The notes under the pieces are model-generated. The model did not search any database and was not told the origin of the DNA. It saw only the letters and a list, made by a program, of their open reading frames with translations. From NCBI GenBank assembly GCA_001767435.1, contig MEKT01000027.1, forward strand, positions 1,770-58,861: a DNA stretch of 57,092 nucleotides, written 5' to 3'. This stretch comes from Acidobacteria bacterium RIFCSPLOWO2_02_FULL_65_29 (GTDB lineage Bacteria; Acidobacteriota; Vicinamibacteria; Vicinamibacterales; CAVVIG01). The translations under genes and the position numbers were made by a program. This document shows positions 22,964 to 56,776 of this stretch, piece after piece (the stretch's first letter is position 1; each line of letters opens with the position of its first letter).

Positions 22964-23068
22964 GAACCTCACTCTCCATGGAACCTCGTGACTCCATGAA
23001 CCTCGCGAAGGCACCGAACCTCGTGAGAGCACCGAACCCCGCGACGGCACTGAACCTCGCGATCGCGC
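22964..23068. repeat. 17/18-bp tandem repeat array, six units
   Basis: Six units begin GAACCTC or GAACCCC: two of 17 bp, then four of 18 bp such as GAACCTCGCGAAGGCACC and GAACCTCGTGAGAGCACC. The array fills the whole spacer between the SBP-OmpA stop and the amine oxidase start (on the reverse strand the units read GGTGCC...GAGGTTC). On the reverse strand each unit offers a GAGG that could mimic a ribosome site. Confidence 0.8.
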
Positions 23069-24733
23069 CTATTCAATGGTGAACCACTGCACTTCGACCC
23101 GACGGTTCTGTTCCGAATCCTTCGAGATCGGCTCTTCCCAGCCACGGCCGACGACGTCGACGCGTGCGACGGGGATGCCGTGGCGCTCGGCCAGCAGGCG
23201 ACGGATCTCGCCCGCGCGGTTCTTGCTGAGCTCCATCGCGCGCAACGCTTGCGTGCGCACGTACGCCTCTCCGCCCTGCTGCCGGAACTTGTCGACGAGG
23301 GCGTTGTCCACGTGGCCGCGCAAGAGGAGCGTGGATCCCGGGCTGACCGCAAGCAGCTTCTTGATCGCTTCGAGGCTCCTGATATTCTCCTGGTTCGCGT
23401 TGTCGAGCGCGGCGGAGTTGGCCTCGAAGAAGAACCGGATGTCCTTGCTCAGCAGCGGATCGGCTTCGAGTGACCCTTTGGCGGCCGTGCGAATCGGCGC
23501 GATCGCGATCTTCTGATCCTTGTACGCCCCGGATTTCTCGAATGCCCGCAGGTGCTTCAGATCGACGAACCGCTCCGAGTCGATCGGATCCTTGATGAGG
23601 TCGCTGCCGTACGCGTAAATGGCCGACTGGTAGATCCCGCCGAAGCTCCCCGCCTCGCCGATCTCTCCGGAAAAGAACGCCAGGTTCTCCGGCAGATTCG
23701 ACAGGTGGACGGCCGCCAGCTCGCTTCTCGTCTCCTCGCGGCTCCACTTGAATGGACGACCGACCAGATCCAGGTAGGTGTCGGGCTGGTCGCGGACCAT
23801 CTTGTTGCCTTCGAGGACGCCGTGTACGAGGCCCGCGACGATCTCGGGATGCTGCTCCGACAGACCGCGGTGCACGACGAGGACGTCGGCCACGATCAGC
23901 AGGTTCCGGTTCGTCGTCAGCACGTGGGCCTTGCCGGTCGACTGCGTGACGACCTCGGAGACCTTGGGTTCCCACGTCACGCATCCGGCGATTCGGTTCC
24001 TGCCCGACTTGATGTCGCTCAAGAACAAGTCGCCCGCGCTGAAGCCGTCGTCGGTGTAAATGACATTGATGCGCTCCGGGTCTGGAGCGGCGTCGATGCT
24101 GCCGAGCGCGCGGACGGCCAGGCCGGCCTCCTGGGCCAGATAGCGGATGAAGAAATCCACTTCGGTGAACTGTGCGGTCGCGATGACCTTCCCTTTGAGC
24201 GCGTTGATCCGCTTGATATCGCTCCGGACCACCAGGCCATCGGCGCCGCGGGAAAACCCGATCTGCGCCGGCACCACGGCGTGAAGTTGCTTCCCGTAGG
24301 CGGCCAGGACGTCGACCGTCGTGACCGACGCGCCTATTTTGCCTTCGTTCAGCTCCGACCAGTTCTCGTCTTCGCTGACGGTCAGCTTGACCTTGAAGCC
24401 GTGCTGCTTGAAGAAGATCGAGTTTTCGGTCGGATCCAAGCCGCCGTTGGCCGCGATCAGGCCGGCGTAGCCGGCGTACTCGCTGATCTCGACCGGCACG
24501 GTGTTGTCTTTGAGCAGGAAGGCCGCCGGCGGCGCGAGCTTGGGCACTTCGAGCTGGACGTCAGCGACATCGGGGGCCGCCTCGGACGTCGCCGCGGCTT
24601 CGGGCGAGTCGGTTCCGGACGGTCCGCTGGCGCGCCGATTCGTCACCATGTACGCGCCAAGCGCGACGAGTCCGCCGATGAGCAGGATCGAAAGCAGCTT
24701 CCCTAGCGCGGTGAATCGAGGCTCGGCCATCAT
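23069..24733 (-). CDS. membrane-anchored substrate-binding protein fused to an OmpA domain
   Basis: This 554-aa protein has one N-terminal membrane helix (LLSILLIGGLVALGAYMV) and a periplasmic type-2 substrate-binding domain of the NMT1/SsuA kind, about residues 75-400 (IFFKQHGFKVKLTVSE; GKIGASVTTVDVL; NALKGKVIATAQFTEVDFFI). A C-terminal OmpA/MotB-like domain follows from about 430 (LLLRGHVDN; LSKNRAGEIRRLL; VDVVGRGWEEP; NRRVEVQW), which normally holds peptidoglycan. It may sense a small ligand while linking inner membrane and cell wall. No ABC permease or ATPase is nearby, so transport is unlikely. AAGGAGGG precedes the ATG, and the start overlaps the pspA stop (ATGA). Confidence 0.85.
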   Translation of the reverse strand: MMAEPRFTALGKLLSILLIGGLVALGAYMVTNRRASGPSGTDSPEAAATSEAAPDVADVQLEVPKLAPPAAFLLKDNTVPVEISEYAGYAGLIAANGGLDPTENSIFFKQHGFKVKLTVSEDENWSELNEGKIGASVTTVDVLAAYGKQLHAVVPAQIGFSRGADGLVVRSDIKRINALKGKVIATAQFTEVDFFIRYLAQEAGLAVRALGSIDAAPDPERINVIYTDDGFSAGDLFLSDIKSGRNRIAGCVTWEPKVSEVVTQSTGKAHVLTTNRNLLIVADVLVVHRGLSEQHPEIVAGLVHGVLEGNKMVRDQPDTYLDLVGRPFKWSREETRSELAAVHLSNLPENLAFFSGEIGEAGSFGGIYQSAIYAYGSDLIKDPIDSERFVDLKHLRAFEKSGAYKDQKIAIAPIRTAAKGSLEADPLLSKDIRFFFEANSAALDNANQENIRSLEAIKKLLAVSPGSTLLLRGHVDNALVDKFRQQGGEAYVRTQALRAMELSKNRAGEIRRLLAERHGIPVARVDVVGRGWEEPISKDSEQNRRVEVQWFTIE

Positions 24734-25470: not shown

Positions 25471-25484
25471 GTCGCCTCCAGACA

Positions 25485-25568
25485 GTTGATAGTCGACAGT
25501 CGACAGTCAACAGTTGACCGTCAGTTGGCTGACTGTGAGCTGTTGACTGTCAACTGTCGACTGTCGAC
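25485..25568. repeat. GTYRACA heptamer inverted repeat between the AAA+ and pspA genes
   Basis: Arms 25485-25513 and 25540-25568 (29 nt) pair at 26 of 29 positions. Words in the loop (AGTTGACCGTCAGTTGGCTGAC) extend the same theme. As in the sdh operon, the element separates two genes of one apparent transcript. Confidence 0.85.
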
Positions 25569-25574
25569 TTCACT

Positions 25575-27329
25575 CTATACAAACCTCCTGAGCGCTTCGA
25601 TGCGATCCTCGATCGCCTCGGGATCGAGCTCTCGGTAGCGCTCGGGAAGAAATCGCGCGTCGGTGCATTCTTTCACGGCCACGAGGTCCATGAATTCCAG
25701 TTTCCGCGTGTGCGCGCTCGGCCGGACCTCACGGAAGACGTCGGCCAGCAGGTCCTTCAGCGGCCGCTTCGGCTCGACCGCCAGCTCCCACGTGCGCAGC
25801 GCGCGCACGAGCACGCCCTCGATCTCGTGGCCGCCGAGCGTGATGCGGTCGGGCACGTCGGGCACGTCGGCGAGCGCCAGCGGCAGCTTCAGCTTGCCCG
25901 CAATCGCGACGAGGAGTGTCCGCAGCTCGTCTTCCGTCTGCGGCGGAAAGAGCGGGATGTGCACGTCGAGCCGGCCTTGGCGCTTGAGATCGACCTCGAG
26001 CAGGTCGGGACGCGACGTCGCGAACACCCAGATGATGCGCCCGCGGTTGCGCGTCTCGGACATTTCCTTGGCGAGCATCGAGTACACGCGGCCCGACAAC
26101 CCGCTGTCGTTGTCGCCCGACTCGCGGCGCCCCGCCGCCTGGTCGGCCTCGTCCACGAACACCACCACCTGGCCGATCGCGCGCAGCACGGCGAAGATCT
26201 TCTCGAGGTTCGACTCGGTCGCGCCCACCCACCGGTCGCGGAAGTTCTTGAAGACCACGCACGGCACGCCGAGCTCGCCGGCCCAGCACTGCACGAGAAA
26301 CGTCTTCCCCGTGCCGATGCGTCCGGCAATCAGGTAGCCCATCGGAAGCGCTCTCAGCGCGCCGCGGCGCAGGAGCTCGCCGTCCTCGCGCAGCCACGCC
26401 TTCACCGCGTCGTGGCCCGCGACGTGGTCGAGCGTGAACGGCGACTCGATGAACTCGAGCAGGCCCTGGCACTCGCGCTCGATCACGTCCTTCTTGCGCT
26501 CGGTCAGCCATTTCGACGTGATGGTCCGGTCGTTGCCGAGCGCCAGCGCGATGGTCGTGCGCGCGCCGACGCGGCTCAGCCCGGTCAGGCGCGACGCCAG
26601 CACGTCCATCGGCACCTCGCACCGCGTGCGCAGGTCCGGAAACTGCGACGCCTCGAGCGCCTCGAGATACGCCAGCATCTCGGGCTCGGACGGAAGCGGC
26701 AGGTGAATCGAGACGGTGTGCGGATTCTCGACCAGCAGCTCGTTGAGGTCGTGCAGCCCCTCGCTGATGAACACGGTGATGATGTTCGACTGCTGAATGC
26801 CCGGGTCGTTGGCCCAACCAAGCGCTTTGACCACGTTCGCGCTGAACGCCCCGCCGAGCTGTACGGCGTCGCCGCGCGGCACCGCGAACTCGGCGAAGTC
26901 CACGAGGACCGCGATCTTGTGCGGCGCCGACCGCGTCGTCTTCTCCGCGCTCTCGAGCGCGCGCAGGTTGAGCGTGCGCAGCAGATACCGATCGATCAGC
27001 TCGAGCGCGGAGCCCGGCTCCCGCAAGAGCGTGAGCGCGTGTCCCGTGCCGTCGGCCGGCCCCAGCGCCTGCTCGAGCCAGGCGCTCCAGTCCTCGCTGC
27101 CGCGCGTGGCTCGCACCCCGCGACTGCGGTCGTAATGCAGAACGACGTCGTAGCCGGCGAACATGACTTCGTCGAGGAAACCCTTGAGCGACAGCTGCCG
27201 CCCGCCGGCTGGCACGAGGTCGAACACGTTGCCGTGGAGGATGAACTGCGCCGCCGATCCGGTCCGAAACAGATCGCGCAACCGCATGGCCCAAGCCGGA
27301 AGCGCGGTGGTGGCCGGCGTGGCCGTCAC
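25575..27329 (-). CDS. AAA+ ATPase, degenerate plus active domain (Ycf46/Vps4-like layout)
   Basis: This 584-aa cytoplasmic protein has an N-terminal half (1-300) that looks like an inactive NTPase: a Walker-B-like IAVLVDFAEF (139-148) and an ISEGLHDLNELL sensor-like region, but no P-loop. The C-terminal half is an intact AAA+ domain: GRIGTGKT (336-343), VVVFVDEAD (388-396), FATSRPDLLEVDLKRQGRLD with sensor 1 and arginine positions, then a helical lid. In ESCRT systems a Vps4 AAA+ ATPase disassembles the ESCRT-III polymer, so the neighbouring PspA is a natural substrate (inference). The GTG at 27329 overlaps the upstream stop (GTGA); a longer 616-aa frame is rejected. Confidence 0.85.
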   Translation of the reverse strand: MTATPATTALPAWAMRLRDLFRTGSAAQFILHGNVFDLVPAGGRQLSLKGFLDEVMFAGYDVVLHYDRSRGVRATRGSEDWSAWLEQALGPADGTGHALTLLREPGSALELIDRYLLRTLNLRALESAEKTTRSAPHKIAVLVDFAEFAVPRGDAVQLGGAFSANVVKALGWANDPGIQQSNIITVFISEGLHDLNELLVENPHTVSIHLPLPSEPEMLAYLEALEASQFPDLRTRCEVPMDVLASRLTGLSRVGARTTIALALGNDRTITSKWLTERKKDVIERECQGLLEFIESPFTLDHVAGHDAVKAWLREDGELLRRGALRALPMGYLIAGRIGTGKTFLVQCWAGELGVPCVVFKNFRDRWVGATESNLEKIFAVLRAIGQVVVFVDEADQAAGRRESGDNDSGLSGRVYSMLAKEMSETRNRGRIIWVFATSRPDLLEVDLKRQGRLDVHIPLFPPQTEDELRTLLVAIAGKLKLPLALADVPDVPDRITLGGHEIEGVLVRALRTWELAVEPKRPLKDLLADVFREVRPSAHTRKLEFMDLVAVKECTDARFLPERYRELDPEAIEDRIEALRRFV

Positions 27330-28174
27330 TGGCTCTCCCTGACCCGCACGGCCGCCGTGAGCGGCGGCGGCTCCGCGAGCAGGTCCTCCATCTCGCCGTA
27401 CACCTTCTGCTGATCGCGAATCCATTGCGCCGTGCCTCCGAGCGTGGCCGTGATCTGATCAATACGCTGGGACAGCCGCTCGGGATCCGTGGAGAGCGCC
27501 GCCTGCTCCCGAATGAGCTCGACCTGCTCCTGGATGCGCACGATCTCGGCGTCGAGGAAGCGGAGCTTCTCCTTCGCCTCGGACTGCTGCGCGATGCGCT
27601 GCCGCAGGATGTCCACCTGGCTGTTCAGGCTTCGCCGGAGATCGTCGCTCACGCCCGGCGCCTCGACCTGCGCTTCGAGATCGCGGAGACGCCGATCGAG
27701 CGGCTCGCCGCGGCCGGCGTCGCCGAGCACGCGATCGATCGCGTGGCGCGCGACCAGCAGCCGCAGATACATCCACATCAAGCGGCCGAGGCCCTCGCTC
27801 TGCGTCTCGATGGCCGCGACCTCGCCCTGCGTCTGCTGATCGAGGATGCCCTTGCAGCGCGCCGCCAGCGCGTCGTACCGCCGGCGATCGCCGTCGCCCA
27901 GTCCCGAGAGCAAGCCGCCGATCTTCCGCTGCCAATCGCGCTCCGATCCCGACACATCGACCGCATCGACGACCCGCTGAAAGCGCCTGTTCGTGGACAG
28001 AAGGGCGAGATAGCCGAGCTCCATCCCGGCGCCGAGCACCCAGAAACCTGGATTGACCAGACCGAGCAGGGCAAACGACGCCACCCCCACCCAGTTCGGG
28101 GCGACAAACATGCCGAACGGGCGCGCGTTGAAGGCCGCCCGCGCGTAGTCGAAGAGGCCGCGGCTCTGGGGCAT
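27326..28174 (-). CDS. membrane coiled-coil protein, first gene of the PspA/AAA+ operon
   Basis: This 282-aa protein has a short cytoplasmic N-terminus (LFDYARAAFNARPFGM) and a hydrophobic hairpin (VAPNWVGVASFALLGLVNPG then FWVLGAGMELGYLALL), followed by about 200 residues of charged helix with strong coiled-coil character (RSLNSQVDILRQRIAQQSEA; EIVRIQEQVELIREQAAL). Both termini should be cytoplasmic, so it could be the membrane platform for the AAA+ ATPase or PspA. No named family was recognised. The ATG at 28174 is preferred over a GTG at 28240; no Shine-Dalgarno is visible, but a TACAAT lies 15 nt upstream, so the message may be nearly leaderless. The stop overlaps the ATPase start. Confidence 0.7.
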   Translation of the reverse strand: MPQSRGLFDYARAAFNARPFGMFVAPNWVGVASFALLGLVNPGFWVLGAGMELGYLALLSTNRRFQRVVDAVDVSGSERDWQRKIGGLLSGLGDGDRRRYDALAARCKGILDQQTQGEVAAIETQSEGLGRLMWMYLRLLVARHAIDRVLGDAGRGEPLDRRLRDLEAQVEAPGVSDDLRRSLNSQVDILRQRIAQQSEAKEKLRFLDAEIVRIQEQVELIREQAALSTDPERLSQRIDQITATLGGTAQWIRDQQKVYGEMEDLLAEPPPLTAAVRVRESQ

Positions 28175-29443: not shown

Positions 29444-30559
29444 ATGAAACGCTTCCTTCAGTTCTTCGTCGCAGCGTTGGCGGTCGCCGCCGGCGCCACG
29501 CTCATGGCGCAGTCGGCGCCGCAGATCAACTACGACGGCGTGGTTGATGCGCTCTCGCTCCCCTCCTACGGTGAAGTCGCCGGCGTGGCGACCAACTCGA
29601 GGGGCAACGTGTTCGTCTACGCGCGCACCGGTCACGCGGTCGCGACGCTCGGCGACGAGCGGACCTTCTATCACGGCGGCTCGCGTCTGTTTCAATTCGA
29701 CCAGACCGGCAAGTTCGTGAAGGAGATCGGCCAGGGCGTCTACGCGGTCAACTTCGCGCAGCAGGTGCGCGTCGATCCGCAGGACAACATCTGGATCGTC
29801 GATGCGGGCTCGAACATGGTCGTCAAGTTCGATCCCGACGGCCGGCTGGCGATGGTGCTCGGCAGAAAGCCCGAAAACATTCCCGTGCGTCCTGGACCCG
29901 GCATTCCGGCAAACGTTGCCGACGTGAAGTCGGCGGCGGAGGCGGCGGCTCGAGGCGCCGCGCCCGCAGCCGGTCGCGGCGGTGGTGGCCGCGGCGGCGG
30001 CACTCCGGGCGTCGGCATCAACGGTGACAACTTCAACCGACCCTCGGACGTCACGTGGGACAAGGCCGGCAACGTCTACGTGGCCGACGGCTTCGGCAAC
30101 AACAACCGCATCGCGAAGTTCACTCGCGACGGCAACTTCATCAAGCAGTGGGGCAGCACGGGAGCCGGGCAGGGCCAGCTCAGCGGCATCCGCGGCATCG
30201 CCAGCGACGCGGCCGGTAACATCTACGTGGCCGACGCCGGCAACAAGCGTATCTCAGTGTTTGATGGCGAGGGCACGTTCAAGTCGCAGATTACGGGCAT
30301 CGGCACGCCCATGGCGATCTGCATCTCGGGCGGCGCCACGCAGTACCTCTACAGCTCCAACTCGAACGAAGCCGAGAGCATGGACAACGGCGAGATCTAC
30401 AAAGTCCGGCTCAACGGGCAGGTCGCCGGCAGGTTTGGCAGCGCCGGCAAGCTGGCCAAGCAGTTCGGCATGGCCAACGCGATCGACTGCCGCACGGAAA
30501 ACAATCTGTGGGTCGGCGAGGTCTGGAACTGGCGGGCGCAGAAGGTGACGCTGAAGTAA
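29444..30559 (+). CDS. secreted NHL-repeat beta-propeller, copy 2
   Basis: This 371-aa protein is a diverged tandem copy of the preceding gene: a signal peptide (FVAALAVAAGATLMAQ) and matching blades GVATNSRGNVFVYARTG, VRVDPQDNIWIVDAGSN, VTWDKAGNVYVADGFGN and IASDAAGNIYVADAGNK. It differs by an insert near residues 165-190, rich in Ala and Gly (AARGAAPAAGRGGGGRGGG), between two blades. Both copies end with a W-containing blade (WRAQKVTLK here, WRVQKLLLK in copy 1), so the pair arose by tandem duplication. AGGAGG precedes the ATG. Ligand unknown. Confidence 0.85.
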   Translation: MKRFLQFFVAALAVAAGATLMAQSAPQINYDGVVDALSLPSYGEVAGVATNSRGNVFVYARTGHAVATLGDERTFYHGGSRLFQFDQTGKFVKEIGQGVYAVNFAQQVRVDPQDNIWIVDAGSNMVVKFDPDGRLAMVLGRKPENIPVRPGPGIPANVADVKSAAEAAARGAAPAAGRGGGGRGGGTPGVGINGDNFNRPSDVTWDKAGNVYVADGFGNNNRIAKFTRDGNFIKQWGSTGAGQGQLSGIRGIASDAAGNIYVADAGNKRISVFDGEGTFKSQITGIGTPMAICISGGATQYLYSSNSNEAESMDNGEIYKVRLNGQVAGRFGSAGKLAKQFGMANAIDCRTENNLWVGEVWNWRAQKVTLK

Positions 30560-30575
30560 CCGTCCGTAACCTGAA

Positions 30576-30644
30576 GTTGACAGTCCACAGTCGACAGTTA
30601 ACAGCTCTGAGCAGCCTGTCAACTGTTAACTGTTGACTGTCAAC
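30576..30644. repeat. GTYRACA heptamer inverted repeat between convergent genes
   Basis: Arms 30576-30604 and 30616-30644 (29 nt each, 25 paired) are separated by an 11-nt loop CTCTGAGCAGC. It lies between the stop of the NHL copy 2 and the stop of the RidA gene on the other strand, the position of a bidirectional terminator. TTCTTT follows on the plus strand. Confidence 0.85.
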
Positions 30645-30654
30645 TTCTTTATCT

Positions 30655-31101
30655 CTATCTCTTCACGGCTGTTCCCATCACCTCGAACCGCGCGCCGTTC
30701 AGGAGCGGTCCCGACCCCAGAAACGCCCTCGCCGGGTACTCCTGCTTGAAGAATGTTCGGTACACCCGATTGAACCCGTCGAAATTGGTGACGTCTGGCG
30801 TGAAGACCTGAATCGACACGAGATCGTCCATCGTCATCCCCGCGGCCTTGAGCGTGTTCTGGATACCTGTCAGGACGGTGGTCGCCGCGACCTCCGCCGT
30901 GTCGCCGGTGCCGAGCATACCGGAGACATACAGCGTGCCGTTGGCGAGCACGGCGCCGCTGAACGGCGGTTGCGTCGCCGCAGCCGGGTTGGCGGCCGAC
31001 CGCCCATTGATGTATTGCCGTCCAGGCTGCGCGGTGGTCGTGAAGGACCATCCCGCACCGATCACGAAGCCGACAGCCAGGGTGAGCGATCTATTCAGCA
31101 C
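30655..31101 (-). CDS. exported RidA (YjgF/UK114) family protein
   Basis: This 148-aa protein is one RidA domain (about residues 28-146) behind an N-terminal signal sequence (LTLAVGFVIGAGWSFTTTAQ). R125 in YPARAFLGS is the position of the catalytic arginine that holds the substrate carboxylate; GARFEVMGTA is the usual closing strand. RidA trimers hydrolyse reactive enamine/imine intermediates made by PLP and flavin amine enzymes. They are normally cytoplasmic, so export is notable and fits the exported PLP enzymes and amine oxidase in this window (inference). Start GTG with GAGGAGG 6 nt upstream. Confidence 0.85.
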   Translation of the reverse strand: MLNRSLTLAVGFVIGAGWSFTTTAQPGRQYINGRSAANPAAATQPPFSGAVLANGTLYVSGMLGTGDTAEVAATTVLTGIQNTLKAAGMTMDDLVSIQVFTPDVTNFDGFNRVYRTFFKQEYPARAFLGSGPLLNGARFEVMGTAVKR

Positions 31102-31133: not shown

Positions 31134-31199
31134 TTAGAGTTCAGACTTCAGAGTTCAGATTGCTGCAGATTTCACACTTCAGATTGGCGATTTTCGACT
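31134..31199. repeat. AGTTCAGACTTCAG word repeat
   Basis: The spacer between two minus-strand genes is made of near-copies of AGAGTTCAG, ACTTCAG and CAGATT words. It resembles the other word families in architecture but has a different word. Confidence 0.6.
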
Positions 31200-32438
31200 T
31201 CATTTGATTTCGACGAGAGCGACGCGGTTCACGCCGCTGCACGCCAGCGCGAGATTGCCATCGCGGGTCGTCATCATGTTGCGCACCACGCCTCCGCCAG
31301 AGGGAATCGCCCACGTCTGGAACTTCTCGGTCTTCGGGTCGAAGCGCACGATCGTGTTCGGCCTCACGGCCGACTCGCTGTACCAGACGATGTCTTTCGA
31401 GACCGTGATCCCGTAAGGCTGGGAGCGCGGACCGCTCGGCGACGGCCACTCCTTGACCGCGCCGGTCTTCGGATCGAGCCGGCCGAGATAGCCTCGCGAA
31501 TAATCCGAGTACCAAATCGCGTCGTCGCTGGTGATGGCAATGCGGCGGGGACGCGACTCGGCGTTCGGCAACGGGTACTCCGTGATCGCCATCGTGACGG
31601 GATCGAAGCTGGCCACCCGGTTGGCGCCGAATTCCACGAGGAACGGCACGCCAGTCGAGCTCACGACCATGCCGTAGGGCAACGACCGCGCAGAGGGCAT
31701 CGTGACGAGCTTGATGTCGCCGGTCTGGGGATTGAGCCGCCCCACCATGTTCGCCTGCTGCAGCGTGAACCAGAGCATGCCCTTCTGGTCGAAGATGGGC
31801 GTGTGCGGATCGCGCGCGGCCGGATCGGGCATTGGATATTCGGTAACCGTTCCGGTTTTCGGATCCAGCTTGCCGACGTGCGCCTTGGAGTTGCCGGTGT
31901 ACCAGATATTGCCGGCGGCGTCGGCCGCCAGCCCGTGCGGCCCGGACGCGGGCGTCTTCAGCGGAAATTCCTTCATGGCGCCGGTTTTCGGATCGAGGCG
32001 GCCCAGCACGTTGGCCCATTGCCCCGTCCACCAGATCGCGCCATCGGGCGTGGCAATCGGATCGTGCGGGCGCGACCCGAGCGACGGCACCACCCACTCC
32101 TTGATCGAGACGCTCGCGCTGCCGGGGATCAACACGGCGGGCGGCCGGGGCTTTTCCGGAAAATTCTTCCCGAGATAATCCGACAGGACGGCGCGATCCG
32201 CGGCCGGCGCCGCCACCATCGACGAGTACAGGGTTTCCCATCCCTCGCGTGTGTAACCGCCGGAATTCACCACCAGGTTGACGGCATGGCACTTCGTGCA
32301 CGTCGCCTGGACGAGGTCCTTGCCGCTGCCTTCGGGTAGAACGGCAGGCGGACCGCCGCGCTGCGTCTGAGCCGGCACGGCGAAGACCGATATGAGAACG
32401 GCGGCCGCTACCGCAGGTACGAAGGACTTCAAAGACAT
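31200..32438 (-). CDS. secreted cytochrome c domain fused to a Vgb-like (streptogramin B lyase) propeller
   Basis: This 412-aa protein has a signal peptide (VPAVAAAVLISVFAVPAQTQ), a small cytochrome c domain near residues 38-105 with haem motif CTKCH, then a seven-bladed propeller of the Vgb/virginiamycin B lyase type with blades ending LGRLDPKTGAMKEFPL, VGKLDPKTGTVTEYPM and VGRLNPQTGDIKLVTM. Vgb enzymes linearise streptogramin B, but most environmental relatives have other, unknown roles, and the fused haem points to a redox function. ATG 32438 is preceded by GAGGAGGAAGC; the frame runs open far upstream, but that part is antisense to the patatin gene and rejected. Confidence 0.85.
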   Translation of the reverse strand: MSLKSFVPAVAAAVLISVFAVPAQTQRGGPPAVLPEGSGKDLVQATCTKCHAVNLVVNSGGYTREGWETLYSSMVAAPAADRAVLSDYLGKNFPEKPRPPAVLIPGSASVSIKEWVVPSLGSRPHDPIATPDGAIWWTGQWANVLGRLDPKTGAMKEFPLKTPASGPHGLAADAAGNIWYTGNSKAHVGKLDPKTGTVTEYPMPDPAARDPHTPIFDQKGMLWFTLQQANMVGRLNPQTGDIKLVTMPSARSLPYGMVVSSTGVPFLVEFGANRVASFDPVTMAITEYPLPNAESRPRRIAITSDDAIWYSDYSRGYLGRLDPKTGAVKEWPSPSGPRSQPYGITVSKDIVWYSESAVRPNTIVRFDPKTEKFQTWAIPSGGGVVRNMMTTRDGNLALACSGVNRVALVEIK

Positions 32439-32507
32439 GCTTCCTCCTCGCGAGTCTGGCGGACCGGGCTCGCAAACTCTGCCCGAAATCATATACCCTC
32501 TTCGCGC

Positions 32508-33656
32508 GTGCATGACCCTTCGCTTGCATTGATGCTGAGCGGCGGCGGCGCCCGCGCCGCCTACCAGGTGGGCTTCCTCCGGCACGTCGCGTCGCGGCAT
32601 CCCGACCTCGCGCCGGGCATCCTCACGGGTGTCTCCGCAGGGGGGATCATCGCGTCGTATCTCGCCTCGCACCCCGGCCGGTTCATCGACGCGGTCACGG
32701 CCCTGTCCGACATCTGGCGGGATCTGCAAATCGACCAGGTGTTCCGCGTCGATACTCGCCACTTGACCACGCGGGTGGGCCGATGGGCCCTGCGCCTCAT
32801 GTCGGGAGGCGCGCCGGGAGCGCCGGGGGCGAAGAGCCTCGTCGACACGACTCCGCTCCAGCAACTGCTCGTGCGGATGCTGGATGCGGAGCCCGACGGC
32901 ACGCTCGGCGGCATCGCCCGCCGCATCGAGCAAGGACGGGTGGGGGCGGTGGCGCTCACGGCGTCGAGCTACACCACGGGCCAGTCGGTCACCTGGGTGC
33001 AGGGGCGCGGCGCCTCTCGGGTGATCACCTGGGAGGGCGCGCAACGCGAGAGCCTTGGGGTCCCGCTGTGCGTGGGCCACGTGATGGCGTCGGCCGCTCT
33101 GCCGCTATTCTTTCCGGCCATCGAGATCGGCGGCGCGTGGTACGGCGACGGCGGCATCCGGCTGACGGCGCCGTTGTCGCCAGCGATTCATCTGGGCGCG
33201 AAGAAGATCATGGCGGTGTCCACGCGCTACGCGCGGTCGCGAGAGGAGGCGCGCGATCCGGCTGTCTCGGGCTATCCCCCGCCGGCCCAGGTCGCGGGCG
33301 TGCTGTTGAACGCCGTCTTCCTGGACCTGCTGGACAGCGATGCGATCAGGCTCGAGCAGCTCAACGCGCTCATCGATCGGCTGCCGCCCGGGTCGCACGA
33401 CGGCCTCCACCACATCAATCTGCTGGTGCTCAGACCGTCGCAGGATCTGGGCCGCCTGGCCAACGAGTTCGAGGCCGACCTGCCGAATCCGTTCCGTTTT
33501 CTCATCCGCGGCCTTGGCAGCCGCGAGACGCGATCGAACGACCTGCTCAGTCTCGTGATGTTCCAGCGCGACTACATCGCGCGGCTGATCGACATCGGCG
33601 AGTCCGACGCGCGCGCGCGCGCATCGGAGATCGACGCGTTCCTCGCCCGTCCCTGA
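32508..33656 (+). CDS. patatin-like phospholipase
   Basis: This 382-aa soluble protein has the patatin fold at the N-terminus: oxyanion-hole glycine loop SGGGARAA (11-18), nucleophile S43 in GVSAGG, and the catalytic Asp in the WYGDGGIR segment near residue 215. Patatin domains hydrolyse acyl ester bonds of membrane lipids. The C-terminal 140 residues are helix-rich and may regulate or bind membranes. No signal peptide, so the enzyme probably acts on the inner leaflet. It starts with GTG at 32508, divergently from the cytochrome-Vgb gene. Confidence 0.85.
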   Translation: MHDPSLALMLSGGGARAAYQVGFLRHVASRHPDLAPGILTGVSAGGIIASYLASHPGRFIDAVTALSDIWRDLQIDQVFRVDTRHLTTRVGRWALRLMSGGAPGAPGAKSLVDTTPLQQLLVRMLDAEPDGTLGGIARRIEQGRVGAVALTASSYTTGQSVTWVQGRGASRVITWEGAQRESLGVPLCVGHVMASAALPLFFPAIEIGGAWYGDGGIRLTAPLSPAIHLGAKKIMAVSTRYARSREEARDPAVSGYPPPAQVAGVLLNAVFLDLLDSDAIRLEQLNALIDRLPPGSHDGLHHINLLVLRPSQDLGRLANEFEADLPNPFRFLIRGLGSRETRSNDLLSLVMFQRDYIARLIDIGESDARARASEIDAFLARP

Positions 33657-36828: not shown

Positions 36829-36836
36829 CGTCCGGT

Positions 36837-36869
36837 CCTTCTAACTTCTCACTTCTAACTTCTAACTTT
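36837..36869. repeat. CTTCTAACTTCTAA word repeat at the end of the TonB receptor gene
   Basis: Tandem near-copies of CTTCTAA / CTTCTCA abut the receptor stop codon. The same words occur, reversed, at 41425-41464. Confidence 0.7.
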
Positions 36870-36870
36870 C

Positions 36871-39800
36871 CTAAAACCCCAGCCTGAGCCCGAGCTGCGC
36901 CTGCCTCGGCAAGCCCGAGGTCGCGACCAATCCGGCCAGCCTGAGGAAGTCGGCCGTGTTCCGGCGGTCTCCGCTCGGATTCACGAAGTTCGCGTGATTC
37001 GTGGCGTTGAAGACCTCGCCGAAAACGTCGAGCGTTCGTCGTGACCCGAGCCTGGCGCGGTAGCCAACCCGCAAGTCGAGCTGCATGAAACCGGGACCGC
37101 GGGCACCGTTGCGGCCTCCCTTATTCTCGACGTTCTGCAACGAGCCCGCCGCTGTGCCGCTGTAGGGCCCCGCCGGGAGCGGGTCGAAAAAGACGCCGTT
37201 CCGGTCGGCATCGATGTTCTGATCCTGAATCGTGAACGGCGTGCCGCTCAGCATCCGCAACATGCCGCTCACGTTCACGCCGTGCGTCTTGGGAATCTCC
37301 AGTCGTCCACTGATGGCCGCGTTGTGCCTGCGGTCGACGTTCGCGGGCGCCTCGAACGCGTCGAGGTTGAGGTCCGTCCCGACTTGCAGCTGTGCCGTAT
37401 CGGCCTGCCCGGCCGCAACGCCCCGCGAGTGCGAAAGCGAGTAGGCCCCTCGGAGGCTCCAGAGGTTGGCATACCGTTTCTCCACCGAGAGGTTCAACGC
37501 GTCGTAATCGTTGTACCCGTATTGGGTTGTGATCAGGCGTACAACGCTCACGTATGCCGGCTCCGCGGGAGACAGACTTCCGTTCAGGATGCCAAAGGGA
37601 TCCAGGAAGTCCCGCCGGCCGGTGCGGGTCGTGTTGATGCGAGATGCGATGTTGAGGTCCGGGTTCAGGAACATGTCCCGCCCGGCCATATGGATGTAGT
37701 CCGCCGATACCGACAGTCCCGACAGCACCTCTCGCTCCCACCCGGCGCTGATCTGATGGAAGTACGGCTGCGTCCGCTCGGGGTCATCCCAGGTGACCGT
37801 CGCGGTGTTTCGACGAATGGCCCCCGGCGGGTAGGTCGCGTTGATGTACGCGCGGACAGCCGGAGTGAGCTGACCGACCGTGGGGGTGTTCAGCGTGGGA
37901 TCGGTCGGGAACCGGCCTGCCGCTGGACCCGGGTCGGCGGCGTTCTGCGGGAATGACGCGATGAACGACGATGAATACTTCGTGTCGAACAACAAATTGT
38001 CGACGGTTCCGAGCAGCGTCCGGTCGTAGAACAGCCCGTAGCCGGCGCGGACGACCGACTTCCCCTGGCCGTCCGGATTCCACACGAGCCCCAGCCTCGG
38101 CGCGAAGTTGTTCTTGTCGACCGGATATGCGTTGGGATCGGAGAAGAGAGGGTTCCCTGTTTCGTCGATCGGCATGACCTCCAGATCGTAGCGAACGCCC
38201 AGGCTCAGCGTGAGGCCGTTCCTCACCTGCCACTTGTCCTGCGCGTAAAACTCGTAGATGTGGGAGATCAACTCGTATTCGAGTATCCCTGGCACTCGGA
38301 TGTTCAGCCGTTCCGGGTACGTTCTCGGATCGGCGGCATTGAACGCCAGATTGTGGTTGAAGACGTACGTGCCATTCCCCTGGCTGTTGTTCGGGTTGCT
38401 GATCCAGATGCGTGTGTACTTGGCCCCGAACTTGTTGTCGTGTCTCCCCGCCTTGTCCGGGATGAACCAGGAGAACGTGTTCTCGAACGAATACGAATTG
38501 TCCAACGAGAAGTCGGCCGTGTCGTCGGCTTGAATATTCAGACTCTGGTAGGACAACCGCGGCGGAAGGAGACTCTGGCCCGTGACGATCCCGTCGCCAC
38601 AGGGAACGCAACGGCCGTACCCTCCGTCCAGTTCGCGCGCAAGAGGGTTTGAGTGGACGGTGCTCTCAAACGTGCCGCCAAACCGGAAGGTGTTCACCTT
38701 CGTATTCGAGACCACGGTCGTCCAGGTCCCGACCAGCGTCTGATCCAGATCGGTCTCATCGTCGTGACTCTGCGGTGTCTCGACGCCGCTCATCACGAAG
38801 AACTGCGGCGCGTACTCGCGCAGATGACGAACCGCCCACGTGTTGTTCGCGTTCACCTGGTGATCGACGCGCCAGAAAGTGTTCCAGGCGGACACGTCAT
38901 CGGTGTTCGAATAACTGAATTCGGGCCGGTCGGCGAACGTTCGTGACTGGTTCCTGGACTGCGCGACACGCTCGATGCTCCCGAAGAAGAAGAGCTTGTT
39001 TCGCAGGATCGGTCCACCGACCGTGGCGCCCCACTCCGTCTTGCCGACATCCGGCTTGGGCCGGCCGGCGAGCTCCGTGAAATAGTCTTTCGCGGTGACG
39101 CCCTTTCCGGTGAAGAAATCGAAGGCGGAGCCCGACAGCTGATTGCTGCCCGATTTGGTCACCGCGTTGATCACGGCGCCCGACGCGCGGCCGTACTCCG
39201 CGTCGAACTGGTTGGTGATGACCTGGACCTCCTGGACCGTTTCGTTGGCCGCGCGGGCTTGACCGCCCACGTTCGACCCGCGCAGGTCGTCGATGTTGCT
39301 GCTGCCATCGAACGAGACGTTGTTGGCGGCCGCAGGCTGCCCGTTGGCGAGCATGGTGTCGTTCAGGAAACCGGCAGCGGGCACGAACACCGCTCCGGGC
39401 ACGTTCCCGACAAACGCCATGTAGCTTCGGCTTCCCGACGGCAGCTGAGCGAGTTCGTCAGCCGAAATGTGGCCGCCGACCTCGGCCGACGACAGGTCGA
39501 CGAGCGGGCTGTCGCCTGTGACGGTAATGGTCTCGGCGAGCGCGCCGACGTCCAAGGTGAGGTCGAGGGTCGACGTTCTTCCCACCTCGATCGTGATGCC
39601 GCGCCGTTCGAGACTTCTAAACCCCTCCATCTTCGCCGTCACGCGGTACCGCCCGGGAACCATCTGCGAGATGAAGTAGCTCCCGTCCGGGTTCGTGACG
39701 ACCTCGCGAAAGATGCCGGTGTCTTCGTTGGTGATCACGAGCGCCACGCCGGGCAACACACCGCCCTGCTGGTCGGTGACTTTCCCGCCGATTTCTGAAG

Positions 39801-39876
39801 TTCCCTGTTGTGCGGAGGCGGGTGCCGCCGTCCACACGAACAGGCCCACAACCACGCCGAGCGCCAATGCACGCAT
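36871..39876 (-). CDS. Oar-like TonB-dependent receptor with carboxypeptidase-regulatory-like domain
   Basis: This 1001-aa outer-membrane protein has a signal peptide (ALGVVVGLFVWTAAPASA). A CarboxypepD_reg-like beta-sandwich follows (about 25-115; GKVTDQQGGVLPGVALVITN, then DGSYFISQMVPGRYRV), then a plug domain (AETITVTGDSPLVD, then VITNQFDAEYGRASGAVINAVT) and a large barrel region ending in LRLGF with terminal Phe, the usual outer-membrane signature. Oar-type receptors take up or display ligands using energy from TonB; the ligand is unknown. The ATG is preceded by AGGAGG and by a promoter at about 39966-39996. An intrinsic terminator lies downstream, so it appears to be a single-gene transcript. 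Confidence 0.9.
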   Translation of the reverse strand: MRALALGVVVGLFVWTAAPASAQQGTSEIGGKVTDQQGGVLPGVALVITNEDTGIFREVVTNPDGSYFISQMVPGRYRVTAKMEGFRSLERRGITIEVGRTSTLDLTLDVGALAETITVTGDSPLVDLSSAEVGGHISADELAQLPSGSRSYMAFVGNVPGAVFVPAAGFLNDTMLANGQPAAANNVSFDGSSNIDDLRGSNVGGQARAANETVQEVQVITNQFDAEYGRASGAVINAVTKSGSNQLSGSAFDFFTGKGVTAKDYFTELAGRPKPDVGKTEWGATVGGPILRNKLFFFGSIERVAQSRNQSRTFADRPEFSYSNTDDVSAWNTFWRVDHQVNANNTWAVRHLREYAPQFFVMSGVETPQSHDDETDLDQTLVGTWTTVVSNTKVNTFRFGGTFESTVHSNPLARELDGGYGRCVPCGDGIVTGQSLLPPRLSYQSLNIQADDTADFSLDNSYSFENTFSWFIPDKAGRHDNKFGAKYTRIWISNPNNSQGNGTYVFNHNLAFNAADPRTYPERLNIRVPGILEYELISHIYEFYAQDKWQVRNGLTLSLGVRYDLEVMPIDETGNPLFSDPNAYPVDKNNFAPRLGLVWNPDGQGKSVVRAGYGLFYDRTLLGTVDNLLFDTKYSSSFIASFPQNAADPGPAAGRFPTDPTLNTPTVGQLTPAVRAYINATYPPGAIRRNTATVTWDDPERTQPYFHQISAGWEREVLSGLSVSADYIHMAGRDMFLNPDLNIASRINTTRTGRRDFLDPFGILNGSLSPAEPAYVSVVRLITTQYGYNDYDALNLSVEKRYANLWSLRGAYSLSHSRGVAAGQADTAQLQVGTDLNLDAFEAPANVDRRHNAAISGRLEIPKTHGVNVSGMLRMLSGTPFTIQDQNIDADRNGVFFDPLPAGPYSGTAAGSLQNVENKGGRNGARGPGFMQLDLRVGYRARLGSRRTLDVFGEVFNATNHANFVNPSGDRRNTADFLRLAGLVATSGLPRQAQLGLRLGF

Positions 39877-40155: not shown

Positions 40156-41346
40156 TTATTGCAGCTGCGCGCCGGTGGATCGACCTCCCGCGGGGAAGAT
40201 CTCCCTGAAGGCCGTCATGAAGCGCGCCATCTCCTCGTCGGTGCCGACCGACACGCGCATGTGCTGCGTCATCGGCGGGAACGGACGGCCGACTGCCACG
40301 CGCTTCTCGCGGAAGGCCTGGATGACCGGCTGCACCTCGCGACGGATGCCGACCATGAAGAAGTTCGTCTCGGTCGGGAGCACTTCGTACCCGAGCGCCT
40401 TGATGTCGGCGATGGCCTTGGTGCGGATGCGCACCGTGTTGTCGAGCACCTTCTTCTGCCCGGCCGTGTCGGCCAGACCCGCCGTGCCACCCCACTTCAC
40501 CAGAGCGTTGATGCTGCCCATCGAGTACGGCCGCATCTGCTGAATGATGTCCGGCGGCGCGACCGCGTAGCCGAGGCGCATGGCGGCGATCCCGAAGATC
40601 TTCGAGAAGGTGCGCGCGATGACCACCGGCCGGCCCTCGAGCACGTAAGGCAGCGCCGTCGCATAGTCCGGGCTCTGCACGAAGTGGAAGTAGGCCTCGT
40701 CGACGAGCACCGGCATGTCGGCCGGAATCCCGTCGAGCAGTCGCTTCACGTCGGACTTCGAGACGATGATCCCGGTCGGGTTGTTCGGGTTGCACAGGTA
40801 GAGCACGCCAATCTCGCGTGCGCGCCGGTTGGCGGTGTCGATGAACGCCTGGATGTTCTGCGTGTAGTCCTTGTTGAGCGGCAGCCGAATCGCGTCGGAC
40901 TTGATGCTCGTCGCGTGCTGGTACACCGAGCTGTAGGTCGGCTCGACGCCGAGCACTTTCCTGCCGTCCTGCAGGAACGTGTTGCCGACCACATCGAGGA
41001 TTTCGCCGGAGCCGGCGCCAAGAAGGACATGCTGCGGGGTGACCCCGTGATGAGCGGCGATCGCCTGCACGATGCCGCCGTCCGGATATCCGTACCGGTT
41101 GGAGTATTTCCAAGCCGAGTTCATGGCCTCCATCACCGAGTCGAGCGGCCCCCACGGGTTCTCATTGCTCGACAGCTTGGCCATCGCGTCGTACTCGGTG
41201 ACGCGCGTGCGCGCGGCGGCCGTCAGGTACGGGGCGCTCCCCGCCGTCCTGGGCTGCGACTGACCGAAAACCTCCGCCGGGCGCAGGCCGGCATACCCCA
41301 GCGCGGTGGCCAACCCGCCGACGAAGCCGCGACGACTCAAACTCAT
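40156..41346 (-). CDS. Tat-exported histidinol-phosphate-aminotransferase-like PLP enzyme
   Basis: This 396-aa fold-type I aminotransferase of the HisC branch has a twin-arginine signal (MSLSRRGFVGGLATALGYAG). Core motifs are NPNNPTG, DEAYFHF and ARTFSKIFGIAAMRLGY with the PLP lysine, and the conserved arginine MRVSVGTDEEM near the end. Cytoplasmic HisC makes histidinol phosphate; an exported copy must use another amino acid or oxo acid in the periplasm. GGAGGACGTC precedes the ATG at 41346, so the 25-residue extension to 41421 is rejected. It stands alone between repeat spacers and has its own terminator. Confidence 0.88.
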   Translation of the reverse strand: MSLSRRGFVGGLATALGYAGLRPAEVFGQSQPRTAGSAPYLTAAARTRVTEYDAMAKLSSNENPWGPLDSVMEAMNSAWKYSNRYGYPDGGIVQAIAAHHGVTPQHVLLGAGSGEILDVVGNTFLQDGRKVLGVEPTYSSVYQHATSIKSDAIRLPLNKDYTQNIQAFIDTANRRAREIGVLYLCNPNNPTGIIVSKSDVKRLLDGIPADMPVLVDEAYFHFVQSPDYATALPYVLEGRPVVIARTFSKIFGIAAMRLGYAVAPPDIIQQMRPYSMGSINALVKWGGTAGLADTAGQKKVLDNTVRIRTKAIADIKALGYEVLPTETNFFMVGIRREVQPVIQAFREKRVAVGRPFPPMTQHMRVSVGTDEEMARFMTAFREIFPAGGRSTGAQLQ

Positions 41347-41424
41347 GACGTCCTCCGTAGTTTCGTGATCCGCTGCACGTGTACTGTCAGGCATTCTACG
41401 CCCGGCCCGGCGGGATGTCACTCG

Positions 41425-41464
41425 AGAAGTGAGAACTTAGAAGTTAGAAGTTAGAAGTTAGGAG
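41425..41464. repeat. AGAAGTTAGAAGTTAG word repeat
   Basis: Five near-copies of AGAAGTT / AGAACTT in tandem fill the gap between the cytochrome stop and the upstream aminotransferase region. The reverse complement of the same words is at 36837-36869. Confidence 0.75.
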
Positions 41465-41475
41465 TTCTGCGAAAG

Positions 41476-42465
41476 CTAGGGCGCGAGCGACGACAGGTAC
41501 GCCGAGATCGCGAGCATGTCGTCGTTGGTGAGCCTGGCCACCGCCGGGGCCATCAGCTCGGCCCACACACCGTGTCTCGCGCCCTGTTGAATGTCGTAGA
41601 GCTGGCGCATCAGGTAACTGGGAGAGCGGCCCGCGAGCGGCGGCACGGGACCGAGCCCTTTCAGATCCGCGCCGTGGCACACCCCGCACCGCTCGGTCCT
41701 GCCGTTCCCTCCGGTCTTCACGAGCGCCTCGCCCCGCTTGACGCTGCCAACCGGGACGTAGGCGATGAACCCGCCGCGCGGATCGCGCAGCAGCTCGGTG
41801 CGCTCGGCGTCCTCCGGCGTCTCGATGATACGCCGGCCGATCGGCTCCGTCTCGTGACCCTCGACGACCAGAAACATGCCGCCCTGGGAGCGCGTCTTCG
41901 GCACGCGCTCGGCTTCAACGACGCGAATCCACGACGTCCACTTCATCGACCCGAAATACTCGGCCGCGGCGGTCACGTCCTCGTCGGTCATCCCGCGCGC
42001 GATCGCGATCATCGTGTTCGTGTTGGCTTTCCGAGGCTCGGCGCTTTTTCGGAGGCCCATCTTGAAATCGGCCATCGTCTGCCGGAAGTACTCGACCGGC
42101 AGACCGGCGACGCCCGCGTTTTCCGGACGCCCCTTGCCGTTCGGATAGTGGCACAGGCTGCACGCGCGAACGTCGGGCCTGCGGCCGTGCGCGACGATGT
42201 CCGGCATCAGCGGATGATCGCCGGGATACCAGTCGGCGGGACCGAACGCGTTGCGGATCTCGGTCAACGTAAACGCGCTGCCCGCTCCCACCAGGCGCCT
42301 CGCCGTCCCTTCGTCTGGCACCGCTTGCGCGGGCGGCGCGCCGGGCGCGGGCGCCGGCGCGATGTTGTACGCCCACGCCGGCGGGTCCTCGGCGGCGCGA
42401 AGAAGACCAGCCGCGCCGCACACGACGAGCGCGACAACCGCCGAACCGATCAGCCTTGTCTTCAT
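41476..42465 (-). CDS. dihaem cytochrome c
   Basis: This 329-aa exported protein has a signal peptide (IGSAVVALVVCGAAGLLRA). Two class I cytochrome c domains are present: the first haem motif is CSLCH near residue 107 and the second CGVCH near residue 263 (followed by GADLKGLGPVPPLAGRSP). The second domain is of the c4/c553 type; the first resembles cytochrome c domains in respiratory electron carriers. It probably carries electrons in the periplasm, for instance between a quinol oxidase-type donor and an acceptor (inference). The ATG at 42465 follows a run of TTGAGGATT words that may supply the ribosome site. Confidence 0.85.
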   Translation of the reverse strand: MKTRLIGSAVVALVVCGAAGLLRAAEDPPAWAYNIAPAPAPGAPPAQAVPDEGTARRLVGAGSAFTLTEIRNAFGPADWYPGDHPLMPDIVAHGRRPDVRACSLCHYPNGKGRPENAGVAGLPVEYFRQTMADFKMGLRKSAEPRKANTNTMIAIARGMTDEDVTAAAEYFGSMKWTSWIRVVEAERVPKTRSQGGMFLVVEGHETEPIGRRIIETPEDAERTELLRDPRGGFIAYVPVGSVKRGEALVKTGGNGRTERCGVCHGADLKGLGPVPPLAGRSPSYLMRQLYDIQQGARHGVWAELMAPAVARLTNDDMLAISAYLSSLAP

Positions 42466-42482
42466 GCTAGAGCCTCGATTCC

Positions 42483-42530
42483 CCAAATCCTCAAATCCTC
42501 AAATTCTCAAATCCTCAAATTCTCAATTTC
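42483..42530. repeat. TCAAATCC word repeat upstream of the cytochrome gene
   Basis: Five near-copies of TCAAATCC / TCAAATTC in tandem. Read on the minus strand (TTGAGGATTTGAG...), they lie just upstream of the cytochrome ATG and provide several GAGG Shine-Dalgarno-like words. Confidence 0.8.
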
Positions 42531-48169: not shown

Positions 48170-48244
48170 GTCGACAGTTGACAGTCTACAGTTGACAGAA
48201 CACACCCATCGACGTCGATGACCTGTCGACTGTGAACTGTGAAC
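48170..48244. repeat. GTYRACA heptamer inverted repeat with a perfect inner palindrome
   Basis: Left arm 48170-48198 and right arm 48223-48244 share the heptamer type (22 of the right arm pair with few mismatches). Inside is the perfect palindrome CATCGACGTCGATG at 48207-48220. It lies between the anti-sigma stop and the DUF4139 start. Confidence 0.8.
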
Positions 48245-48270
48245 TTCGCGACGCCGAGGTGCGAAGCGCT

Positions 48271-49347: not shown

Positions 49348-49362
49348 GGCTGCATCCAACCC

Positions 49363-50253: not shown

Positions 50254-50567
50254 GCCACTCTATTCTGACAGCTATCAGCCGTCAGCCCTCAGAGCCTGTG
50301 AAGAATCGCTGTCGTGTCTGCCTTGGGGCGGACTTTTCATGGTCCGGCTGAAGCCGGACACTACAAACCTGCGATTTCTTCACACGCTCTCAGCTGTCAG
50401 CTCTCGGCCACGCCAGTCTACAGTTGACAGTCGACAGGTTCCTCAACTGTCAACTGTGAACTGTTGACTGTCAACTTCGCTGATCGCTGATCTCAACTGT
50501 CAACTGTCAACTGTTGACTGTCAACTTCCCTGATAGCCGATAGCCGAAAATGGTAGTCTGATCTCTC
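50254..50567. other. gene-free repeat cluster between the sigma factor and cytochrome b561
   Basis: These 314 bases hold no gene but a dense mix of repeats. There are TCAGCC/TCAGCT words (50272-50292 and 50391-50405), a nested element with outer arms AGAGCCTGTGAAGAATCGC (50291-50309) and GCGATTTCTTCACACGCTCT (50371-50390), and an inner perfect hairpin GTCCGGC-TGAA-GCCGGAC (50342-50359). Heptamer words GTYRACA follow from about 50416 to 50525, then GATAGCCGATAGCCG words. No promoter could be separated from them. Confidence 0.75.
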
Positions 50568-56745: not shown

Positions 56746-56773
56746 CTCGGGGCTCGGGACTCGGGACTCGGGA
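56746..56773. repeat. GGGACTCGGGACTCGGG word repeat
   Basis: The words GGCTCGGGACTCGGGACTCG follow the ggt stop codon directly, before the convergent gene at 56777. Same family as at 19526 and 20026. Confidence 0.75.
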
Positions 56774-56776
56774 TGT

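Follow-up and report, generated by a model that had tools for sequence, protein, structure and literature searches.

Tandem arrays of 7- and 8-nt units behind stop codons in an Acidobacteria genome

The five intergenic sites of facing GTYRACA heptamers in the 57,092-nt stretch of DNA analysed here (the window) belong to one of about ten families, or flavours, of 7- and 8-nt tandem repeats in the genome of the window (denoted G000; 239-contig assembly, 5.5 Mb). What looks like a hairpin at such a site is a facing pair of arrays from one family, with an unrelated loop between them. The observation of five sites is real and larger than first described; by the tests made, it does not represent an RNA family with selected pairing, and any function of the arrays is putative and unproven.

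Arrays in the window and in the genome

All five sites lie between genes, at the places given in the initial annotation. Genes were called with a codon-usage script and not taken from annotation; their starts are approximate, and some were missed (e.g. 31141-32529). Site 1 consists of an AGTNNAC array of four units at 1528-1557 (+ strand) and a right arm at 1573-1602 (AGTNNAC on the - strand), the stop codon of gene 1627-3480 (-) being 21-25 nt away; a heptamer array of another flavour, TCAGCTT, adjoins it at 1504-1527 (+). The inverted arms of site 2, at 25484-25524 (+) and 25529-25569 (-), are 41 nt long (85%), and the right one stands 3-6 nt behind the stop codon of gene 25575-27425 (-). 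At site 3, arms of 32 nt (88%) occupy 30573-30604 (+), 13-15 nt behind the stop codon of gene 29444-30559 (+), and 30616-30647 (-), 8-9 nt behind that of gene 30655-31101 (-). Site 4 has its left arm at 48170-48198 (+) and its right arm at 48223-48245 (-), with 48174-48191 and 48223-48240 as the inverted stretches; the right arm follows the stop codon of gene 48271-49359 (-) at a distance of 26-30 nt. Site 5 (50414-50526) comprises three arrays: the left arm at 50414-50437 (+) has two inverted partners to its right, at 50443-50476 and 50491-50526 (both -), and the right-hand copy lies inside a 50-nt tandem duplication (50442-50541, 92%).

The repeat unit is better written AGTNNAC, with AGT..AC conserved and NN variable. 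Among 295 units, positions 1, 2, 3, 6 and 7 agree in 265, 292, 284, 287 and 277 (90-99%); T or C predominates at position 4, and G, A or C at position 5. That these repeats form a family far above chance was borne out: GTYRACAGTYRACA with at most one mismatch yielded 34 matches (dimers) in the window, compared with 0.17 expected and a maximum of 2 in any of 100 shuffles. Genome-wide, exact occurrences numbered 258 (130 forward, 128 reverse), against 32 (18 and 14) for the pattern read backwards.

The window also holds arrays of other heptamers and octamers. An octamer array of CTCAAATC units (ATTTGAGG flavour on the - strand) is found at 9012-9058 (-). The same flavour, again on the - strand, recurs at 42480-42526, behind the stop codon of gene 42536-44797 (-). 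AGAGTTC heptamers (TGAACTC on the - strand) at 31136-31159 (-) overlap the stop codon of gene 31141-32529 (-), an array of the AGTNAGA flavour on the - strand (36836-36870) directly follows the stop codon of gene 36871-39876 (-), and GGGACTC heptamers (56742-56776, +) lie at the stop codon of a gene ending at 56745 (+). A TTAGAAG heptamer array at 41423-41471 (+) is antisense, 5-9 nt behind the stop codon of gene 41476-42486 (-). Separately, 18/36-nt tandem repeats (GAACCTCGCGAAGGCACC), of a period outside the 7/8 class, occupy 22981-23062, just behind the stop codon of gene 23069-24733 (-).

A sample of G000 made up of the window and 40 further stretches (753 kb in total) contained 119 period-7 and 45 period-8 arrays by a strict scan, and its Markov shuffle none. 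A looser scan yielded 209 arrays of period 7 (176 intergenic) and 101 of period 8 (96 intergenic); the other periods, 5, 6, 9, 10, 11 and 12, yielded 2, 26, 55, 1, 10 and 19. The families include AGTNNAC, AGTCGNT, AGTNAAA, AATTNAG, AGTNAGA, GCAAAGG and AGTCCCN, and the octamers ATTTGAGG, CACGAAGA and GGGTAATY. Every family combines nearly invariant positions with one or two free ones. AGTNNAC arrays usually have 4-5 units: runs of 2, 3, 4, 5, 6 and 9 AGTNNAC units numbered 8, 8, 47, 20, 9 and 1 in G000; shuffled sequence gave 12-21 runs of 2 and none longer. Runs of 4 units numbered 21 for ATTTGAGG, CACGAARN in G000 had 9 runs of 2, 38 of 3 and none above 3, and the AGTNNAC peak was at 5 units in a Chloroflexota metagenome-assembled genome (MAG). 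An octamer element of G000, CCACGAAGACACGAAGA, with examples at L052:14798-14865, L047:9057-9123 and L049:10154-10224, occurs in inverted pairs and mostly comprises three units (three-unit runs number 38 and two-unit runs 9, with no longer ones); it is also present in G017 (L177).

In G000, neighbouring AGTNNAC units resemble each other less than expected by chance (39 of 274, against 54.9 ± 6.3), and the same holds in Saprospiraceae (z -2.0); they are more alike than chance in cyanobacteria (z 17) and in the Chloroflexota MAG (z 3.6). Two other G000 flavours gave positive values (z 3.2 and 5.0) and three no clear signal (z 0.3, -0.5 and -1.8). Unit-wise duplication is clearly part of the picture, yet AGTNNAC is shaped by something further.

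Position behind stop codons and pairing of the arms

An array started within 15 nt of the stop codon in 108 of 590 G000 genes (72 of period 7 and 36 of period 8); for the other tested periods, the figure was 7 of 590. In a metagene of 582 genes, lag-7 identity was 0.26-0.29 over the 100 nt that end with the stop codon, rose to 0.35 over the next 28 nt, and then dropped, with lag 8 reaching 0.31 behind the stop and the other lags nearly flat. Strand orientation was counted for arrays less than 40 nt from a gene end where the nearest end is a stop. The sense-to-antisense ratios were 31:2 for AGTNNAC, 15:1 for AGTCGNT, 9:0 for AGTNAAA, 10:0 for AATTNAG, 10:2 for AGTNAGA, 7:0 for GCAAAGG and 20:1 for ATTTGAGG, which sum to 102:6 over these seven of twelve tested patterns in G000. 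The other five gave 8:2 (CACGAARN), 2:0 (AGTTCAG), 3:0 (GGGTAATY), 2:0 (CAGCTNT) and, reversed, 2:12 (AGTCCCN). A bias towards purine-rich sense strands was seen in 82 of 108 cases in G000, but in only 7 of 16 in the relative G037 and 6 of 17 in G011. G000 genes with a post-stop array used TAG stops more often than the others (64 of 136 versus 150 of 454, p 0.003) and TGA stops less often (46 of 136 versus 232 of 454); the TAG excess is partly expected because some array units contain TAG.

At matched spacer lengths above 40 nt, array frequency showed no dependence on the direction of the downstream gene. Arrays stood behind 33 of 122 codirectional and 16 of 69 convergent stops with spacers of 100-300 nt, and behind 21 of 80 and 13 of 54, respectively, with spacers of 40-100 nt; below 40 nt the values were 5 of 151 versus 9 of 42. 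That arrays are as common behind codirectional as behind convergent stops when the spacer exceeds 40 nt weighs somewhat against a terminator role. Heptad or octad hairpins were present in 36% (18 of 50) of the convergent spacers of 80-700 nt, compared with 17-23% in the other classes.

The initial annotation reported arms that, where measured, pair at 25-26 of 29 positions (86-90%) and read the pairing as kept, which suggested selection for structure or repeated gene conversion. The pairing itself is present, but it follows from the common heptamer and is not kept site by site. The orientation of GTYRAC arrays is carried only by the A/T spacer and the variable pair, and GTYRAC itself is palindromic; high pairing is therefore expected of any two facing arrays, whatever their history. 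Arms within a site paired no better than arms swapped between sites; selection for structure is thus not supported. When right arms were exchanged between sites, the pairing score was 13.3 within sites versus 14.8 ± 0.5 for permuted arms; pairing over 28 nt was 22.4 within versus 23.1 ± 0.24 between sites; and pairing at the variable positions, anchored at the outer ends, was 0.384 within versus 0.354 ± 0.026 permuted. Two of the three measures are below the permuted arms and the third is slightly above, not significantly so: there is no base-level covariation between the arms, which had been suggested as a check. Gene conversion between the arms is argued against by the variable strings, which are near random, and by the lack of any four-unit string common to both arms of one site.

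Pairing holds at the level of the flavour, not of the base. In the 753 kb of G000, neighbouring AGTNNAC arrays were convergent in 33 cases, divergent in none and in direct order in 2, which agrees with the two facing arms first described. Among 95 neighbouring pairs of 7/8-nt arrays found in G000 without the use of any pattern, 50 were inverted and of one flavour (13.1 permuted, maximum 20), as were 19 of 44 in six relatives (2.9 permuted, maximum 6). Most arrays in G000 are unpaired, with 50 inverted pairs among 269 arrays. A purine-rich-left polarity was seen in 47 of 50 cases in G000, but in only 10 of 19 in the relatives. The loops differ, as had been noted: those of heptad hairpins lack mutual similarity, and hairpin loops in general are unrelated, except for octamer loops that themselves contain arrays. 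Predicted folds of the RNA strands of the five sites (six folds) had z values of -4.5 to -9.9 relative to shuffles. Pairing of the flanks beyond the arms was not above permuted values in G000 (mean run 0.30 versus 0.55) or in cyanobacteria; it was 1.15 versus 0.70 in a Chloroflexota set (largest permuted value 1.23) and 1.38 versus 0.51 in a mixed set of other phyla (largest 1.07). Arm pairing in the mixed set was 17.1 versus 13.1 ± 0.7 permuted; since this set pools many species and the arms of one genome share composition, it provides no clean test of pairing. The window had no Rfam match above the gathering score and, given this result together with the lack of covariation, a structured RNA was rejected.

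Orthologous stops, relatives and other phyla

At orthologous stops the period and the place of the arrays are kept, and the sequence is not. At site 2, which is flanked by an AAA-ATPase/PspA-like pair (Pfam matches), the spacer is ∼104 nt long and filled by the facing arrays in G000, and ∼25 nt long with no array in G037, the flanking proteins being 69% and 79% identical. Behind the homologue of gene 29444-30559, G017 carries an octamer array, GGGTAATC. Behind homologues of gene 40156-41421, units of the GAATTCT type are found in G017, AAGTCRG in G010 and GTTCGGG in G014, each array standing between the stop and a shared GC-rich terminator; G000 and G037 have no array there. At one post-stop site of Microcoleus/Tychonema, whose left flank is 86-100% identical among 14 genomes, two genomes have facing AGTTGAC arrays, six TCAGTAG/TCATTAG, two units of the GAAGGAA type, one a two-unit remnant and three no array. 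The arrays at this site lie upstream of a conserved terminator-like hairpin, where the hairpin is kept. A second site, readable in 12 of the 14 genomes, has at least four unrelated families and no array in G073. These genomes (G060-G073) also contain many copies of a stretch of ∼140 bp that lies beside a heptamer array (L154:4773-4915).

Arrays within 15 nt of the stop codon were found for 16 of 111 genes in G037, 17 of 117 in G011, 9 of 86 in G007, 5 of 61 in G014 and 5 of 63 in G010 and G017 together, and for none of 87 genes in G029, 47 in G015 and 41 in a stretch of E. coli K-12. Ten more relatives were sampled by 6-40 kb each. Four period-7 arrays and one of period 8 were present in 21 kb of G016, one array in 29 kb of G005, one in 40 kb of G021 and one of period 8 in G003; the samples of G001, G002, G004, G008, G013 and G019 contained no array of period 7 or 8. 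Among GTDB genomes, the facing-pair pattern of the AGTNNAC heptamer matched 72 stretches, many of them from one groundwater Chloroflexota MAG and the others from cyanobacteria, Saprospiraceae and other Bacteroidota, Terriglobia and other Acidobacteriota, Anaerolineales and an Oscillospiraceae MAG. Because these loci were picked by the facing-pair pattern, array densities in the resulting sets (Chl1442, Cyano and Saprosp) are inflated and give no test of orientation. In Saprospiraceae SJ15 (L106, L113, L101), we observed stems built of two shells, one inside the other, each from a different heptamer family and mirrored between the arms.

A search for a responsible gene covered four candidates. 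The Y1 transposase family PF01797 had no member in G000 (three candidates scored; at 97% genome completeness the absence is not absolute), on which ground RAYT-driven REPINs were rejected; it likewise had none in array-rich G011 and four in array-free G029. The SbcD model TIGR00619 had no match in G000, in the array-bearing G010, G011, G014, G016, G017 and G037, or in G001-G004, G013, G015 and G019, relatives with few or no sampled arrays; it was present in array-bearing G007, in array-free G029, and also in G021 and G041. Loss of the hairpin nuclease SbcCD was rejected as a permissive factor, as SbcD presence does not track arrays. Reverse transcriptases (RVT_1, PF00078) were rejected as the cause on the same ground, being missing from array-bearing G007, G010, G016 and G017 and present in G001, G013 and G015, where no period-7 array was seen; the domain of Y-family polymerases does not track arrays either. 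Two other repeat types were encountered. GTAG-type REP-like inverted doublets (GTAGTGTCCG..., GTAGCGCAGG...) occur in G000 and G010 (L050:17370-17425, L053:10452-10509 and the L175 spacer), though no Y1/RAYT gene was found in G000. A dispersed hairpin family without tandem units, AGACAGCTTCTAAAGCCGA / TCGGCTTTAGAAGATGTCT, is present at L040:12079-12139, L042:13457-13519, L049:262-312 and L067:2954-3022.

Possible origins and related repeat systems

We tentatively regard the arrays as turnover products of a process that duplicates 7-8 nt and spreads behind stop codons, a reading that we hold to be the likeliest, though at somewhat less than an even chance. Arrays would be born and turned over by duplication in 7-8-nt steps just behind the translated part of genes, plausibly aided by the loss of ribosome cover there, which would allow RNA-DNA hybrids or let exposed transcripts slip. 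A small number of heptamer families would then spread between 3' ends, and inverted partners would arise by template switching or be supplied by another array of that family. Since a step of 7 or 8 nt is a frameshift inside genes, it would be purged there and tolerated behind the stop, where arrays could persist. No job as terminator or stabiliser at each site would be required to account for the data, and arm covariation lends it no support, although some arrays may have been put to use. The periodicity, the metagene profile, the share of genes with a post-stop array, its independence of the downstream gene's direction at matched spacers, the match of flavour between neighbours, the replacement of flavours, the unrelated loops and the empty orthologous site suggest such an origin, as does the likeness of adjacent units in cyanobacteria, the Chloroflexota MAG and two G000 flavours, a signature of slippage. 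Against it, adjacent AGTNNAC units are less alike than chance, the opposite of what plain slippage predicts; run lengths are peaked and do not fall; and AGT..AC stays fixed where NN varies freely, a pattern that neutral decay would not produce. We identified no carrier that would spread one family to hundreds of sites. These points speak rather for a recognised motif under selection, or for an enzyme that works from a template.

The main rival holds that each flavour is a selected tandem array of sites for a putative protein that binds ribosome-free RNA (or DNA) behind the stop, with about four copies needed; facing arrays would serve both flanking genes or allow symmetrical loading of the protein. 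This is possible, though we consider it rather unlikely. The fixed and free unit positions, the preferred unit number, the differing adjacent AGTNNAC units and the single strand orientation at 3' ends (102:6 over seven patterns) are all consistent with binding sites. Against them stand the number of flavours in a genome (about ten) and their free replacement at orthologous stops, whole relatives without arrays (0 of 87 and 0 of 47 genes) and the missing purine-rich sense bias in G037 and G011.

RNA hairpins selected as transcription terminators or 3'-end stabilisers would account for the strong predicted folds and for the excess of hairpins in convergent spacers (36% versus 17-23%). We hold this to be improbable, as base covariation is lacking (two of three measures lie slightly below the permuted arms), most arrays are unpaired, convergent stops are not enriched at matched spacer length, and arrays lie before a separate GC-rich terminator in three relatives or before the conserved hairpin in Microcoleus. 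REPIN- or MITE-like mobile elements with heptamer-array inverted ends, moved in trans by a transposase, have little to recommend them over that: two inverted ends of ∼29 nt with a spacer, solo ends, the 3'-extragenic place, the single polarity (33:0) and the empty orthologous site fit such elements, but PF01797 has no match in G000 and array-rich G011 and four in array-free G029, and the heptad loops lack similarity and the arms are not copies of a master. According to the available part of PMC3116915, REPINs moved by RAYTs resemble our sites in their inverted doublets with a spacer forming hairpins, their solo ends and their extragenic location; they differ in that G000 has no RAYT that we could find, and has tandem-heptamer arms without a master copy and unrelated loops. 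We consider very improbable a dedicated array-writing enzyme whose short template sets the flavour (telomerase-like addition or templated repair). Such an enzyme would fit the peak in unit number, the restriction of the free positions to Y and then V, the AGTNNAC units that are not homogenised, wholesale flavour replacement and patchy lineages, but no candidate enzyme was found and PF00078 does not follow the arrays. To the broader proposition, that in several phyla a dedicated process writes about four 7- or 8-nt units where translation stops, with a constant period and place, an interchangeable word (the flavour) and the trait present or absent as a whole in each lineage, we give a small chance; if true, orthologous genes of sister species end in different words.

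To our knowledge, heptamer arrays of bacteria have been noted for decades without a cause. The short tandemly repeated repetitive (STRR) heptamers of cyanobacteria share the heptamer period of the G000 arrays. The initial annotation knew of no named family, which is partly right: the layout has been published for G-rich heptamers of Xanthomonas (PMC4692102), and facing AGTNNAC pairs occur in other phyla and in other Acidobacteriota. The accessible sections of that paper describe GGGAATC and GGGGA(C/T)T heptamer arrays of Xanthomonas and Nostoc that have fixed and variable positions, are dispersed between genes, prefer four units, lie close behind the upstream ORF with no functional class of neighbours, and form 70-75 facing (convergent) pairs per Xanthomonas genome; they also cite three heptanucleotides of Calothrix PCC 7601. 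As far as these sections go, G000 is alike in its intergenic tandem heptamers with fixed and variable positions, its convergent pairs and the four-unit preference of AGTNNAC (47 runs) and ATTTGAGG (21), though CACGAARN peaks at 3. One G-rich flavour was studied there and four units were linked to G-quadruplexes; G000 differs, within the same limits, in having many flavours, among which AGTNNAC, AGTCGNT and AATTNAG have consensus units free of G-runs. Because families without G-tracts show the same four-unit preference, quadruplexes cannot be its general reason, and AGTNNAC is a variant of the Xanthomonas/Nostoc class by layout and not a member of the G-rich family.

By analogy, the closest precedent for flavour replacement in the literature available to us is the P6b stem of the Nostoc trnL intron. 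The part of PMC4476775 at hand reports Class I (TDNGATT) and Class II (NNTGAGT) heptamers with free positions, repeated class replacement at one site and indels in 7-nt steps. P6b is, on this account, a single site inside an intron RNA, unlike the G000 arrays, which stand at many places behind stops and lack arm covariation. The TAACTGA direct repeats of Beggiatoaceae, cyanobacteria and Bacteroidetes, in the excerpted text of PMC4679880, are intergenic and patchy across phyla, show 7-nt indels between close strains and are mixed with other heptamers; unlike the arrays of G000, those of the Guaymas Beggiatoa are there mostly upstream of start codons, with 169 direct-repeat sets and a single indirect repeat. 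The literature covered, with most subscription journals outside it, yielded no description of stop-anchored heptamer arrays with several interchangeable families.

Taken together, the arrays are anchored at the stop codons of nearly a fifth of the genes sampled in G000, independently of any one sequence, and their preferred length and facing layout recur in flavours unable to form quadruplexes. They also carry a warning: a strong predicted hairpin composed of repeats is not necessarily a structure under selection. Array-bearing and array-free relatives within one order, together with Microcoleus species whose flavours differ at a shared site, offer a direct means of searching for the cause, for which a mutational process tied to the coupling of transcription and translation, or a binding factor, are the candidates.
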